In this document: positions 1 to 37,351 of the stretch, piece by piece
How positions within the stretch are numbered: the stretch's first letter is position 1
Layout: each line of letters begins with the position of its first letter
Virus record (IMG/VR): IMGVR_UViG_3300035074_000025
Location: 1-39,575 of that record
Strand: one strand, 5' to 3'
DNA: 39,575 nucleotides
DNA from: a virus
The notes under the pieces: model-generated
What the model saw: the letters and a program-made list of their open reading frames with translations, nothing else
What the model was told of the DNA's origin: nothing
Databases searched by the model: none
Translations under genes and position numbers: made by a program

Positions 1-36
1 CGTCCATTTGGTCGTATCCGTCAGTCTCTTTGCCAT
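1..36 (-). CDS. Partial gene, N-terminus of a replication-type phage protein
   Basis: An ATG at 36-34 on the minus strand is preceded by a purine-rich AAGGAAG stretch and opens a frame reading MAKRLTDTTKWT before the window ends. From memory, N-termini of the type MAKRLTDTxKW are common in phage replication initiators and replisome organisers, so I infer that role. Only 12 codons are visible, so the call rests on that short resemblance and on its place at the far end of the leftward early operon. If the two window ends were joined, the frame would meet the right-edge codons in phase and stop after 20 residues. Confidence 0.35.
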   Translation of the reverse strand, partial: MAKRLTDTTKWT

Positions 37-111: not shown

Positions 112-203
112 TCACGCCACGCTCTCCGCAATGCTGATTAATAAATCCCTGAAAGGGGGCGGCGTTCTCGCTCTTTGGCTAGTGGAGAGGAATTCGCAGC
201 TAG
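112..203 (-). other. Second, out-of-frame C-terminal segment of the methyltransferase-like gene
   Basis: Downstream of the TGA at 204-206 and in another minus-strand frame, the sequence encodes FLSTSQRARTPPPFRDLLISIA and a short tail, ending in TGA at 112-114. It matches the upstream gene's own C-terminus (ISAAERIHTPLPFRDLLLQIA) at 12 of 21 positions, while only about 30 of 63 nucleotides agree. It is therefore a diverged homologous end, not a recent copy. The reading frame reaching it stays open back through the TTCG repeat, so one more repeat unit would join it to the gene body. Confidence 0.6.
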
Positions 204-851
204 TCAAGCCGAACTCCTTTGCCCTGCTATTTGAAGCAATAGATCGCGAAACGGTAACGGCGTGTGTATCCGTTCTGCTGCGCTGATTCTCTTCATTGGC
301 ATAATTCCTGCGATTCGTTCGTTCGTTCGTTCGTTCGTTGAGTGGTATCCTTCTTCCAAGCGCATTTTCCCAACACACGGACCCCATGTGAGCTCCGGCA
401 GCGGCCTGGGGGCGACGACGTAAAGCCATGTGGCCTTGTCTGCGCGGTGCCCGTAATGCCCTTGGTGAACTTGGCAAACCCACGCGCCGAACCCATCGCC
501 AGCGGAATGCCAGCCCCCAGCAACATCGGGGAAAGCTAAGCGGTAGTATTTAAACGCAGCGGAGAACGCCGGGTGCTCCAAGACGCCGCCGAAGTTCCGC
601 ACCGCCCATAGTGCGCGGTCAAAACATCCCCCGTCGTCTCCTTTAACTCTTCTCTTCGCTGCTGGATTAGGACCGCCAGAATGATATTTCCCCCAGCGTT
701 CGCAGGGTGGATGCGCCACCACAGAATGTGGCCCGGCATAGCTACGCGCATCGCGTTCCAAATCATATGGATCTACGTTCGGTAATCCGAAGTACGGCCC
801 ATCTTTCGCTACAAATAATGCGGCGATCACTACTCCCCCACTTACGTCCAA
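204..851 (-). CDS. Methyltransferase-like phage protein (HPPC/LEHP motifs) with a tetranucleotide repeat
   Basis: A 215-residue protein of a family I recognise in many phages. Visible landmarks are an AALFVxxDGPYFGLPxVDPYD start, HPPC at residues 47-50, GDDGGCF near 71-77, LEHP at 91-94 and a C-terminal TPLPFRDLLLQIA. The HPPC and EHP pair recalls motif IV (PPC) and motif VI (ENV/ENP) of cytosine methyltransferases, but no AdoMet-binding loop is clear and activity is unproven. The open start is TTG at 851; a GTG at 830 behind a GGGGGAG stretch fits the family start (IAALFV) better. Codons near 171-180 are encoded by a CGAA tandem repeat, so the C-terminus depends on repeat number. It is the last complete gene of the leftward early operon. 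Confidence 0.72.
   Translation of the reverse strand: MDVSGGVVIAALFVAKDGPYFGLPNVDPYDLERDARSYAGPHSVVAHPPCERWGKYHSGGPNPAAKRRVKGDDGGCFDRALWAVRNFGGVLEHPAFSAAFKYYRLAFPDVAGGWHSAGDGFGAWVCQVHQGHYGHRADKATWLYVVAPRPLPELTWGPCVGKMRLEEGYHSTNERTNERIAGIMPMKRISAAERIHTPLPFRDLLLQIAGQRSSA
314..337. repeat. Tetranucleotide tandem repeat (TTCG)x6 inside a coding region
   Basis: Six uninterrupted TTCG units (CGAA on the coding strand) followed by TT. They encode the NERTNER-type residues of the methyltransferase-like gene. The unit is not a multiple of three, so gain or loss of one unit changes the downstream frame. Repeats of this kind drive phase variation of bacterial restriction-modification genes. Confidence 0.95.
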
Positions 852-1382: not shown

Positions 1383-2000
1383 TTAAACTCCCTTGCTTGC
1401 CGGACGCTCCACGAAATCCAAATACTTTCCAGCTTCCGTTACCGCCTCTAAAAGTGGGCCGGTTGGATTTTTGGCTTTCCAGTAATCAACAAATCCGTTC
1501 AAATCGTGTTGCCCGATGGCGTCCAGGCGCTTGTCTTTGTACTTGCCGACCTTGATTACATAGGAGCCTGGCTCGGAAGTGGCCTGGAGTGTTGCCTTGC
1601 CTTTGGGCGACTGTGGTGCCTCGGCAAGCTTCGCGTTTTCGCTTGGCTCGCGTTCGTCAAGCCTTCCCTGTTCCTCTAACTCCTGAGCCATGAGGGTGCC
1701 GAAGTTGCAGAAGGAGGCAGCCCTGGATACGGCGCAAGTTTCCGCCTTCTCGACAAACGCCTCAAAGCCTTGCTTGGTTTCCATGCTTGTCGCCTGGGCG
1801 ATCACCCTTCCCTGTTCATTGCGAATGGTGGCTCGGCACACGGCTACGGAGTCAGTGAGTACTGGAAATTCCGTTTCAATCCCCCACTCCGGCCTTTCCT
1901 CGCGGAACCACACGATACGGGGAGCCGCCTGGAGATAGTCCTTTCCCTTGATATCCATAATGGGAAGCTCTGTACCCTTTGGAGTTTTGAATGTTTTCAT
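1383..2000 (-). CDS. Putative single-strand annealing recombinase with ExoX-like C-terminal domain
   Basis: 205 residues. The N-terminal part (about 20-105) resembles Rad52/Erf-like phage annealing proteins: RIVWFREERPEW, then a strand pair around AVCRATIRNEQGRVIAQATS, then FVEKAETCAVSRAASFC, which matches the KAETxAIGRAL helix of that group. Residues 145-200 (IKVGKYKDKRLDAI, then FVDYWKAKNP) resemble the small domain at the C-terminus of ExoX-type exonucleases and DUF3820 proteins. The likely role is annealing of complementary single strands during phage recombination. Its ATG overlaps the stop of the Gp157-type gene upstream (ATGA), as expected for a recombination operon. The family assignment is from motif memory, not a search. 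Confidence 0.55.
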   Translation of the reverse strand: MKTFKTPKGTELPIMDIKGKDYLQAAPRIVWFREERPEWGIETEFPVLTDSVAVCRATIRNEQGRVIAQATSMETKQGFEAFVEKAETCAVSRAASFCNFGTLMAQELEEQGRLDEREPSENAKLAEAPQSPKGKATLQATSEPGSYVIKVGKYKDKRLDAIGQHDLNGFVDYWKAKNPTGPLLEAVTEAGKYLDFVERPASKGV

Positions 2001-2518
2001 GCGCCCACCTTCTTATTTGCGTACTTTCTCAAACTGTAAACGTCTTCAAGACCAGCTCCCTCGATCGCGCACCCGTTTTGCAGATCCACCTTTATGCGTT
2101 CCTTGTCGGGAACCCACTCCGTTACCTGCATCTTGTATTCCTGGGGAATTTTCTCTTCGTTAAGCACAACCTTCGGCGCGAGTTTCGATAATTTGAAACG
2201 CACGTCGCCGCCCTTAACCTCGTCGGTGTTCAAGGTACGCATGGCGAATTTGATATTGTCGTTAAGCCGCTCTTTCAGCGCCTTGCAGGATTTAGAAACC
2301 TTGGAATACGAATCAGCCTTGGCCTTCCAATAATCGGCCTCAGTTTCAAGACGCTCCATAAACACAGCGTAGCCATCGCACTTGGTAGCCAAGTCGGTTC
2401 CCACGTTATCGAATGCGCTTTCAAGTTCCGGCGTTAGCTCGCCACCGTTCTCGATGATTGCGGACACAATCACGCTCATTTCGGAAACGATTGTGGATAA
2501 AGATTTATTTTCACTCAT
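1997..2518 (-). CDS. Siphovirus Gp157-family protein
   Basis: 173 residues with the Gp157 layout: an acidic N-terminal helix (ELTPELESAFDNV), a coiled-coil stretch of about 55-100 rich in Lys and Glu (METEADYWKAKADSYSKVSK type), then the short sheet segment FKLSKLAPKVVLNEEKIP and a C-terminal KxxIKVDLQNG. Gp157 proteins sit beside single-strand annealing proteins and nucleases in many phages; the name comes from a Streptococcus phage resistance factor and the biochemistry is unclear. Start and stop overlap both neighbours by ATGA, so translation is probably coupled. Confidence 0.7.
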   Translation of the reverse strand: MSENKSLSTIVSEMSVIVSAIIENGGELTPELESAFDNVGTDLATKCDGYAVFMERLETEADYWKAKADSYSKVSKSCKALKERLNDNIKFAMRTLNTDEVKGGDVRFKLSKLAPKVVLNEEKIPQEYKMQVTEWVPDKERIKVDLQNGCAIEGAGLEDVYSLRKYANKKVGA

Positions 2519-3639: not shown

Positions 3640-3978
3640 ATGCTTAAATTGGACGATTTCCCCATTAGGCTTAGAAAGTACCGGGAAGAACAAGGGTTAC
3701 ACCAGGGCCAGCTAGCTAAAATGGCCAACGTAACCCAGGGGCAGATCAGCCATTACGAGCTCGGGAAAGCCTTCCCCAACCTTGAAAGCACCATAAGGAT
3801 AGCGAACGCCATGGGTGTAACGGTCGCCTCTCTTATAGGAGAAACGGACGCAAGACCGGCACCGCCCAGGCCACCGCGCAAGGAAGAAATGGCGCTATTT
3901 ATCCTGGAGGCGCTGGGGATTAGCGAAATCAAGGTGGATCAAGTGCGATACATCTTGGGGGAAGTGCCTAAATATTAG
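3640..3978 (+). CDS. CI-like repressor, short HTH_3 type
   Basis: 112 residues. Residues 8-62 form a classic HTH_3 (Cro/CI) domain: IRLRKYREEQG, then HQGQLAKMANVTQGQISHYE with the recognition helix at TQGQISHYELG. A Pro-rich linker (PAPPRPPRKEE) follows, then about 30 helical residues. It lacks the S24 peptidase half of LexA/CI repressors, so induction would not be by RecA-stimulated self-cleavage. Likely role: prophage repressor acting on the 3.5 kb operators. The membrane protein at 4090 follows on the same strand. Confidence 0.75.
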   Translation: MLKLDDFPIRLRKYREEQGLHQGQLAKMANVTQGQISHYELGKAFPNLESTIRIANAMGVTVASLIGETDARPAPPRPPRKEEMALFILEALGISEIKVDQVRYILGEVPKY

Positions 3979-26080: not shown

Positions 26081-26710
26081 ATGACCCTAGCTGTTCAAAC
26101 TGTACGGCAAGTATTCAACGGTAACGGAAGTACGGTTGATTTCACGATTCCCTTCGCCTTTTCTGCAAACGATGAAGTAGAGGTAATTCACGTTTCTTCG
26201 GCTGGCGTGGAAACGGCACAAACATACACCACGCACTACACAATCGTCGGATCTACGCTGACGATGGTAACGGCCCCGGCAAGCGGGGCCTTTCTTCTTA
26301 TCAAGATGGATAAGGACTTAGAGCAGCAGACGTGTGACTTCGCTGACAACACTCCATTCCTGCCGACGACTGTAGAATCCTCAGACGACTACCAAGCCTC
26401 TCTTATTCAGCAGCTAAACGAGCGAATCGACCGCTGCGTTACTTTCCCGAAAAGCTCTACACATACCAATATAGAGATCCCGCGAACGCTGGTGGCCAGT
26501 TCTGTGCCGATGGTGAATGCGGGAGCAACAGCTTTCGAGTGGATCACGAGAGACAGTTTAGCGGGTGACGACGGGACCGATGGGGCTGACGGCGATGACG
26601 GTGCCAGGGGAAGTCTTTGGACTACTGGCTCGGGGGCACCGGCTGGCTCGGCTAACGCCGGGGACTTGTACTTGGACGAAGATACGGGGAACGTATGGCA
26701 ATACAGCTAA
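26081..26710 (+). CDS. Tail fibre, N-terminal half (split by HNH insertion)
   Basis: 209 residues. The N-terminus (VQTVRQVFNGNGSTVDFTIPFAF) is the T7 gp17-type domain that anchors fibres to the tail; a helical linker follows. After about 165 comes a collagen-like run GDDGTDGADGDDGARG and then GSAPAGSANAGDLYLDEDTG-type sequence ending NVWQYS. In intact phage fibres this segment usually continues W-x-x-IGNIKGxTGPxG. That continuation is found in the same frame 474 bases later at 27182. The stop here coincides with the end of the antisense HNH gene. Confidence 0.75.
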   Translation: MTLAVQTVRQVFNGNGSTVDFTIPFAFSANDEVEVIHVSSAGVETAQTYTTHYTIVGSTLTMVTAPASGAFLLIKMDKDLEQQTCDFADNTPFLPTTVESSDDYQASLIQQLNERIDRCVTFPKSSTHTNIEIPRTLVASSVPMVNAGATAFEWITRDSLAGDDGTDGADGDDGARGSLWTTGSGAPAGSANAGDLYLDEDTGNVWQYS

Positions 26711-27126
26711 ACATTCAAAGTATCTTCTGCCGACCACTTTGCATGAAGTCGCTTTCTCTTCGCCATTTCGCAGATGGAACAGTAACGCTGTTTTCCATAA
26801 ACTTTATCAAATGGATGCCCTCGTTTGCAGTGCGTCTTTCTGGCATTAAGCGCAGGTCGAGAAACGCTGTCATTGAAAATGTTTTCTTTGCGCGTGAGAA
26901 GCTGAAGATGCTGGGCGTTCACGCATCCAGGCTTTCGGCAAATGTGATTAATGACAAGTCCTTCGGGAATGTCTCCGTGGACAAAGAACCAAGCAACGCG
27001 ATGTGCGCGGCGGTTTCTTCGGCGAAAGTGAAAAGTTCCATATCCGTCCTTATCAACCTGGGCTTGCCACATATGGCAGTCACCAACCTTTTTCCACTTA
27101 GTATTAAATCTTTCGTTGTCCGTCAT
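26707..27126 (-). CDS. HNH homing-type endonuclease inserted in the fibre gene
   Basis: 139 residues from the ATG at 27126 with GGAGG five bases upstream. It shows the phage HNH layout: CHMWQAQVDKDGYGTF, RAHRVAWFFVHGDIPEG, VINHICRKPGCVNAQHLQLLT (His-Asn-His core), then a Cys cluster HCKRGHPF and CSIC for zinc. Free-standing HNH genes of this kind spread by cutting intron- or insertion-less relatives. It is antisense to the surrounding operon and fills almost the whole gap between the two fibre halves. Confidence 0.88.
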   Translation of the reverse strand: MTDNERFNTKWKKVGDCHMWQAQVDKDGYGTFHFRRRNRRAHRVAWFFVHGDIPEGLVINHICRKPGCVNAQHLQLLTRKENIFNDSVSRPALNARKTHCKRGHPFDKVYGKQRYCSICEMAKRKRLHAKWSAEDTLNV

Positions 27127-27181
27127 ATGAGCCTCCGCATGGAACGCATGGGTGCATGGAACACATGGGGGAATTTCTAAC

Positions 27182-27601
27182 ATGGGATGGACGCAGATTG
27201 CAAACATTAAGGGTACGACCGGTCCCGCAGGACCGACCACCTATGACTTAGTTGTAGACGCCGCTGGCGGCGGGGACCATACGACGATAGGTGCCGCGAT
27301 TACTGCGGCCAGCGCCGGGGATTCCATAATTATAGTTAAGGGCACATACGCCGAGAACGTCACTGTTTCAAAGCAGCTATTTATTCAAGGCAGGGGCCGA
27401 GGCTCATTCATCGACGGCACGGTTACGTTTGATTCATCGTCGGATTACAGCACTCTAAAAGACGTGAAGGTTGGCGGCGACGTAACTCTGCAATCTGGCG
27501 CTGATGGGATTCGTGCCGACATTCTTTTCGAGAACGGATTTCAATTCCAAGTTGACGCGGCAGTTGTTGGCGACAACCTAACAAGCGTCACGGAGGCATG
27601 A
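27182..27601 (+). CDS. Tail fibre, C-terminal half (beta-helix part)
   Basis: 139 residues from the ATG at 27182. It opens GWTQIANIKGTTGPAGP, the usual sequel to the NVWQYS end of the upstream half, then VVDAAGGGDHTTIGAAITAA, SIIIVKGTYAENVTV and repeated short strands, as in right-handed beta-helices of the pectate-lyase type. GGGGGA nine bases before the ATG could let it be translated alone. It lacks its own tail-anchoring domain. It is in the same frame as the upstream half. ATGA overlap with the next gene. Confidence 0.65.
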   Translation: MGWTQIANIKGTTGPAGPTTYDLVVDAAGGGDHTTIGAAITAASAGDSIIIVKGTYAENVTVSKQLFIQGRGRGSFIDGTVTFDSSSDYSTLKDVKVGGDVTLQSGADGIRADILFENGFQFQVDAAVVGDNLTSVTEA

Positions 27602-36429: not shown

Positions 36430-37035
36430 TTACTTGTTTCGTTCCAAAGTTGCCAAGCGCCGCGCCCTATTATCCCAACCTTTTTTTGCCCATGCCATAT
36501 TTGGATATTTCTTCACCCGCGCCTCATTGTAGCGGAGTACGGCGGCAGAGAATCGGCCAAGGAAATTCTTTTCCTCAAAGCCGTTCACCTGATTAATCAC
36601 GTTCACGCTGTATGGAATCACTGTATCGAATGGAATCAACACGGCATCGCGCAAGCAATTCAAACACCCCGTAAGCCCCTTATTCACGGCAGTATCGAAG
36701 ATCACCGTAGCTACGGAATCATAGGTGTACTCATCCCCTCTAATGGGTTTCCAAAACTTCTTAATGTAGATCCGCTTGGCGGCCTCCAACGGCATATCCC
36801 GAATCTCCTCAGATGTGAGCTTCCTTCCAAGAAATTCCTCATACTCTTTATGGATCACGCCCCATTTCGTACTTCCGCCGGGGTCACGCGGATCATTGCT
36901 GAACCCCCCCTCATTGAGCAGCACATACTCCAGCGCCTTATCGAATCGCGATGTGTCCAGCGGCGGCGCTACTGGTTCCTTCACCGGAAGCGGCTGGGCT
37001 TTTTCAAAGTCTTTGGGCGTTTTTGTGATGGTCAT
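36430..37035 (-). CDS. Endolysin, glycoside hydrolase family 108 type
   Basis: 201 residues. FDKALEYVLLNEGGFSNDPR, then DPGGSTKWGVI (about 31-61) is the GH108 N-terminal signature with the catalytic Glu at position 42; AKRIYIKKFWKPIRGDEY and ATVIFDTAVNKG follow as expected, and the C-terminal VINQVNG, then FLGRFSAAVLRYNEARVKKYP fits the partner peptidoglycan-binding domain. It cuts peptidoglycan glycan strands at lysis. No signal peptide, so it needs a holin. The ATG overlaps the Gly-X gene stop (ATGA), a strong sign of coupled expression. Confidence 0.9.
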   Translation of the reverse strand: MTITKTPKDFEKAQPLPVKEPVAPPLDTSRFDKALEYVLLNEGGFSNDPRDPGGSTKWGVIHKEYEEFLGRKLTSEEIRDMPLEAAKRIYIKKFWKPIRGDEYTYDSVATVIFDTAVNKGLTGCLNCLRDAVLIPFDTVIPYSVNVINQVNGFEEKNFLGRFSAAVLRYNEARVKKYPNMAWAKKGWDNRARRLATLERNK

Positions 37036-37184
37036 CCGAGCACCTCATCCCAGCCGTAGCCGTCGCCGTAGCCGTAGCCGTCGCCGTAGCCGGAGCCGTC
37101 GCCGGAGCCGTCGCCGTCGCCGGAGCCGTAGCCGTAGCCGGAGCCGTAGCCGTAGCCGGAGCCGTTGCCTCTTCCATCAATCAT
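37032..37184 (-). CDS. Gly-X repeat protein, copy 2 (50 aa)
   Basis: MIDGRGNGSGYGYGSG then strict alternation of Gly with Ser, Tyr or Asp, ending GYGWDEVLG. Encoded by six-base units GGC-TCC/TAC/GAC. GAGG lies seven bases before the ATG, which overlaps the stop of copy 1; its own stop overlaps the endolysin ATG. Expected to be disordered. Phage proteins of this composition exist, with no known role. Confidence 0.6.
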   Translation of the reverse strand: MIDGRGNGSGYGYGSGYGYGSGDGDGSGDGSGYGDGYGYGDGYGWDEVLG

Positions 37185-37351
37185 GATTTCACCTCATCCC
37201 AGCCGTCGCCGGAGCCGGAGCCGTAGCCGTAGCCGGAGCCGTCGCCGGAGCCGTCGCCGGAGCCGGAGCCGTCGCCGGAGCCGTTGCCGTAGCCGGAGCC
37301 GGAGCCGGAGCCGTCGCCGTAGCCGGAGCCGTTGCCTCTTCCATCAATCAT
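37040..37351. repeat. Tandem duplication built from six-base units
   Basis: Two arrays of six-base units (plus strand GCCGTA, GCCGTC, GCCGGA) about 150 bases each, each bordered by the same ends: CTCATCCCAGCCG at one side and GCCGTTGCCTCTTCCATCAA at the other. They differ in number and order of units. Confidence 0.85.
37181..37351 (-). CDS. Gly-X repeat protein, copy 1 (56 aa)
   Basis: Starts with the same codons as copy 2 (MIDGRGNGSGYG), continues with Gly-Ser/Tyr/Asp alternation and ends GDGWDEVKS. I chose the ATG at 37351 because both copies share the bases from there on; an upstream in-frame start would only read back through the previous gene. It overlaps the gene before it. Confidence 0.6.
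   Translation of the reverse strand: MIDGRGNGSGYGDGSGSGSGYGNGSGDGSGSGDGSGDGSGYGYGSGSGDGWDEVKS

Follow-up and report, generated by a model that had tools for sequence, protein, structure and literature searches.

The window, that is, the whole stretch of DNA analyzed, is a virus record of 39,575 bases that is classed as linear (IMG/VR IMGVR_UViG_3300035074_000025). Near its left end, the minus strand carries a methyltransferase-like gene with a tetranucleotide array, followed by two related C-terminal segments, designated tail 1 and tail 2, the second of which begins immediately past the stop codon of the first, and then by the start of a next gene, which presumably resembles phage replication initiators (Table 1). 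The open reading frame (ORF) considered in an earlier, sequence-only reading of this DNA ran from a TTG codon at 851 to 204 and encoded 215 amino acids (aa). A GTG at 828-830 with GGGGGAG upstream appears to be the likelier start, and its use would make every form of the protein described below 7 residues shorter than when counted from the TTG codon.

Table 1. Features of the methyltransferase-like locus in the window and of two related array-containing genes in other phages
Feature	Position	Strand	Description	Basis
Start of next gene (MAKRLTDTTKWT...)	1..36	-	Cut by contig end	Sequence
Tail 2, SCEFLSTSQRARTPPPFRDLLISIAESVA plus TGA	112..201	-	Read at 4, 7, or 10 units	Family HMM
Methyltransferase-like gene (phrog_12600)	204..830	-	208 aa with six units; TGA stop at 204-206	PHROG, homologues, AlphaFold2
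Tail 1, TPLPFRDLLLQIAGQRSSA	207..263	-	Native C-terminal helix; read at 3, 6, or 9 units	Family alignment; model
(CGAA)n on coding strand, TTCG on plus strand	314..339	-	6.5 copies; encodes NERTNER	TRF; frames
L285 C5-methyltransferase with CGAA array and two modules	L285:10423-11562	-		
L292 C5-methyltransferase with CGAA array and two modules	L292:1741-2322	-		

Between the methyltransferase-like gene and an ORF at 1073-1285, no clear gene was seen; this gap (834-1072) may be decayed or regulatory, and its frames gave no PHROG match that would point to a decayed gene. Elsewhere in the window, about 16 copies of an 18-base repeat (AGCCGT type), open in arginine/serine-rich frames, were observed at 37052-37336, adjoining an endolysin-like gene (36430-37035). 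An ORF at 26707-27240 that by eye appears to be of the HNH type lies on the minus strand, opposite to the flanking tail-region genes, and a 17-base direct repeat is found in its region (27137-27169). The phage is probably temperate, since it encodes a repressor-like HTH protein (3640-3978, plus strand) and a Mu Gam-like end-protection protein (1997-2518, minus strand).

The gene product is predicted to adopt a C5-methyltransferase-like fold

The gene product matched phrog_12600, a family of unknown function, over most of the length of the profile (E = 3.1e-57; positions 4-193 of 203). A total of 174 homologues were collected, and relatives occur in Pseudomonas, Caulobacter, and Xanthomonas phages, in microviruses, and in many viral and bacterial contigs. 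The product had no match in Pfam at E values up to 1 (PF00145 included), and nothing significant was obtained in a sequence search of solved structures. The AlphaFold2 model (85 sequences) had a pLDDT of 92. Its closest solved fold by Foldseek was M.HaeIII (E = 2e-4), and it matched DNMT3A and M.HhaI upon structural superposition (Z 9.3; rmsd 4.3-4.4), with residues 1-209 of the model lying on residues 12-324 of M.HhaI; by both approaches, the model has the overall fold of C5-cytosine methyltransferases. Among the 85 relatives, H41, P43, C44, and E86-H87-P88 were invariant and P42 was nearly so; the PPC of motif IV is present, and the ENV of motif VI is replaced by EHP. C5-methyltransferases typically contain an FxGxG motif I, which was not recognizable at the N terminus upon inspection of the family alignment. 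Because this motif and a Pfam match are both missing, we classify the protein as C5-methyltransferase-like only: it models as a small C5-cytosine-methyltransferase-like fold, and methylation is putative.

The tail motif, represented by both tail 1 and tail 2, forms the C-terminal helix in the model (residues 193-203) and, because of the way in which the model superposes on M.HhaI, is placed where C5-methyltransferases have their last helix. The array is positioned in the variable linker preceding this C-terminal helix. Model confidence is lower in this linker (pLDDT about 73-85), which would, judged from the superposition, occupy the place equivalent to the target-recognition region of C5-methyltransferases.

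The length of the array sets the encoded C terminus

The claim that six TTCG units lie in the coding region of this minus-strand gene was borne out by TRF (100% match), and the protein lengths given earlier for four to seven units were reproduced upon recomputation from the TTG codon at 851. With six units, the protein has 215 aa and terminates in ...TPLPFRDLLLQIAGQRSSA, and the forms with seven units (247 aa) and four units (243 aa) both terminate in ...TPPPFRDLLISIAESVA. With five units (184 aa) or eight units (188 aa), a stop is encountered just past the array and the motif is absent; the frame of tail 1 was regained at three and nine units. The arrangement is that expected for C-terminal phase variation, the array being located in the 3' part of the gene and its length altering the encoded C terminus. 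The open frame leading from the array to tail 2 is no evidence by itself, because in 94 of 161 homologues at least one other frame is open beyond the gene's own stop from the equivalent point.

The 1.69 Mb of comparison loci fetched irrespective of repeats (L002-L256) contained only one perfect tetranucleotide array of four units and none that was longer; chance composition cannot account for the TTCG array. A tetranucleotide array of at least four units was absent from all 174 homologues of the gene, which makes the array peculiar to the present phage. Near-identical relatives were found neither in the viral contigs, which were searched with the repeat-flank pattern, with the tail 2 pattern, and for related loci, nor by blastn against phage and plasmid records.

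The two tails resemble different relatives

Recomputation upheld the reported likeness of the two ends, which are identical at 12 of 21 residues and 30 of 63 bases (48%). In a scan of the six-frame translation of the window with a family HMM (159 homologues), tail 2 was detected at E = 7.7e-7 and, besides the gene and tail 2, nothing scored under E 0.6; PHROGs too matched tail 2 (E = 0.0034). By these sequence matches, tail 2 is a true C terminus of the family. Its best scores were obtained with the TGACQRLSKNQRAATP / TGACQRLSKNQRAATPIPFRDLLISIA subgroup (88 for L053 and 85 for L017), those of tail 1 with a different subgroup (78 for L032 and 76 for L024), and the score of the two tails against each other was only 57. 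Since each tail scores higher with different relatives than with the other tail, the proposal that the two ends were brought together by recombination is supported. Duplication in situ was considered as the source of tail 2 and ruled out, each tail being nearer to other relatives than to its neighbor.

None of the 174 homologues carried a further tail in the 600 bases that follow an intact gene; in L060 and L130, the motif lies downstream merely because their own frame is broken. The YHS-TP linker of relatives of the same subtype was mostly 23-27 residues long and exactly 25 in five of them (L018, L021, L026, L099, and L105), and linkers of 48-50 residues were present in L036, L046, and L101. 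In the window gene, this linker comprises 25 residues at six units and 59 at seven units. Because the 25-residue spacing equals that of the relatives, six units give the native frame and tail 1 is the native end; a comparison of C termini among homologues had been suggested for deciding which of the two ends is ancestral, and it points to tail 1. Tail 2 agrees with the family consensus and shows no decay, and it is therefore either recent or still used. Most likely, it is a 3' remnant of a homologue that has been displaced.

Tetranucleotide arrays in DNA-modification genes of other phages

TTCG arrays of six or more units were found in 47 stretches of viral contigs, and the phrog_12600 gene was present in none of the DNA examined around them. 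On the CGAA strand, such arrays were often located in DNA-modification genes, namely in C5-methyltransferases of phrog_116/363 (L259, L285, L292, and L303), in phrog_67 methyltransferases (L261 and L272), in phrog_757 (L274 and L291), and in a Mom-like protein (L302), as well as in PAPS-reductase-like genes (L263 and L297) and replication genes (L262, L277, and L280). GCAA arrays, used as the control repeat for TTCG, were found in 54 stretches. They were located in methyltransferases (L304, L305, L334, and L348), in a group of phrog_56 methyltransferases on contigs whose names suggest sequenced isolates, in PAPS-reductase-like genes (L320, L322, and L331), in a queuine-tRNA-ribosyltransferase-like gene (L306), and in phrog_2668 (L314, L321, L347, and L349). 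The DNA-modification pattern is thus not special to TTCG.

Matches to DNA methyltransferase or Mom-like families were obtained for 13 of the 43 array loci scanned, and no methyltransferase family had two members among the families listed for 80 control ORFs from array loci. Families phrog_67, 116, 757, and 424 together accounted for 16/43 array loci and at most 4/80 controls (Fisher P = 9e-6), a strong lead rather than a finished statistic, because the array loci are in part related and the ORFs were hand-chosen, the control counts being taken from the first 25 families. The arrays of L257-L357 were often seen close to the start of an ORF or between two out-of-frame halves. They may constitute a general phage contingency system, and we regard the occurrence of arrays in phage DNA-modification genes as a more interesting result than the window locus itself.

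Some of these loci carry signs of switching. In L303 and L320, two parts of a gene (a phrog_116 methyltransferase and a phrog_424 gene, respectively) flank the array in different frames, as an OFF state would require. The sole difference between L327 and L335 across a 3.25-kb region consists of 48 gap bases, corresponding to 8 versus 20 GCAA units (a 12-unit difference) in a phrog_56 methyltransferase gene; an upstream ATG was seen in both that is out of frame with the main ORF at both unit counts. In the related phage C5-methyltransferases of L285 and L292, two homologous modules, ANCIKARYDDGISN..GSGVCE and AATLLSRDYKG..NGVIE, come after the CGAA array. The modules lie in different frames, the +1 offset between them being the same in both genes, and L285 now reads the second module and L292 the first. 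A second repeat, (AGAGC)4, lies about 400 bases past the CGAA array of L285. L336 and L350, on one contig, are copies of an array locus with 12 and 18 units, the upstream 400-base flanks of which are identical and the downstream flanks only about 70% identical; they could be alternative cassettes. Signs of switching in other gene families only make the reading of the window gene more plausible.

Discussion

By analogy with these loci, the array most likely makes this gene phase variable, and we lean toward reading it as an ON/OFF contingency-type repeat in a C5-methyltransferase-like phage gene, with tail 2 most likely a recombination stub. In the assembled state of six units, the native C-terminal helix would be read in frame (ON). 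At five or eight units, a stop right after the array would yield a protein without the helix (OFF), and such forms are expected to be inactive because the helix that packs back onto the core is missing. With four or seven units, out-of-frame reading through tail 1 would continue into the second family C terminus, and a seven-unit form with a second working end is possible. Tail 2 itself would derive from an older homologue that once preceded the next gene and of which mosaic recombination left only a 3' stub when it displaced the rest. Slippage of the window array is assumed by analogy, and any benefit would presumably lie in DNA modification that varies between progeny phages. The position of the array in the 3' part of the gene counts against an ON/OFF repeat, the usual site of which is the 5' end.

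Phase-variable DNA modification is established in bacteria, and the type III mod phasevarions of Haemophilus and Neisseria are switched simply ON or OFF by tetranucleotide arrays in host chromosomes. The window gene is similar to these in that a tetranucleotide array lies within a gene for a DNA methyltransferase (here methyltransferase-like) and dissimilar in that it is a phage gene, belongs to a different fold family, and has its array in a 3' position. C-terminal phase variation was described in Helicobacter canadensis (PMC2823697) and in Neisseria gonorrhoeae, in which one gene can terminate in either of two ways or, in its third frame, run on into the next gene as a fusion (PMC5320596). 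The window gene shares with these cases a repeat near the 3' end and three frames that lead to three C termini, there sometimes by fusion with the next gene; however, those repeats are bacterial homopolymer tracts with observed length variation, whereas the repeat here is a phage tetranucleotide array of one assembled length followed by two homologous ends. No phage-borne C-terminal phase variation was found among the titles and abstracts listed in searches of the open-licence PMC literature. The same CGAA array is present in the phage methyltransferase genes of L259, L285, L292, and L303, and two homologous modules are present in L285 and L292, but these genes belong to phrog_116/363 and encode larger proteins. 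The earlier statement that no phage gene with this arrangement was known needs to be narrowed, as C-terminal phase variation is a described bacterial class and L285 and L292 resemble phage parallels.

The sequence-only reading had proposed a three-state switch, in which slippage selects between two working C termini and a truncated third state. Such a switch might also affect the choice of target, given that the array maps to the counterpart of the target-recognition segment. A slippage-prone coding array and two homologous ends in different frames are indeed present, but we consider a switch between two working ends unlikely. Tail 2 is intact and matches the family consensus, long linkers are known in L036, L046, and L101, and L285 and L292 carry two homologous modules, in different frames, past the array, all of which would suit two working ends. 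So would the NgoAV type I system, in which a slipped poly-G tract joins hsdS1 to hsdS2 and specificity is proven to change (PMC9577141). As in NgoAV, slippage at the gene end would here join a homologous downstream segment of a DNA-modification protein; NgoAV, however, is a host system in which a homopolymer acts on a specificity subunit with proven function, and the downstream segment here has only about 29 codons. Against two working ends, the seven-unit linker is far longer than the native one and partly out of frame, a second tail is absent from all homologues, alternative frames are commonly open, and L285 and L292 come from another family and show further frame changes in their modules.

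It is likewise improbable that nothing switches, with an array that arose by chance slippage and became fixed in this phage and a tail 2 that is an unrelated recombination scar. The lack of the array in all homologues and the scar-like position of tail 2 would agree with this, but arrays of five or more units are rare in loci not selected for repeats, those of other phages show a much higher share of DNA-modification genes than is seen among control ORFs, and a random site in the window would meet this 3'-end stretch in <1% of cases (330/39575; calculated post hoc). Tail 2 lies at most 203 bases from the end of a linear-classed record, and the last 200 bases at the contig end might have been joined from a related strain during assembly. 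Such an artefact is very improbable, as tails with so few bases in common offer no long shared word to mislead an assembler, and an ordinary gap and then a gene start lie beyond tail 2.

Under the ON/OFF reading that we favor, copying slips at the array could silence the gene or give it another tail. A tentative and rather doubtful extension is that tetranucleotide slippage is a general contingency of phages in DNA-modification genes and that some, such as the window gene and L285/L292, swap homologous C-terminal segments in addition to being switched off. If phages carry such a switch, one burst would hold virions of different modification states, and these mixed states would be a bet against hosts with differing restriction systems. 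The similar arrays in other phages suggest that phages, like some bacteria, can treat DNA modification as a gamble.
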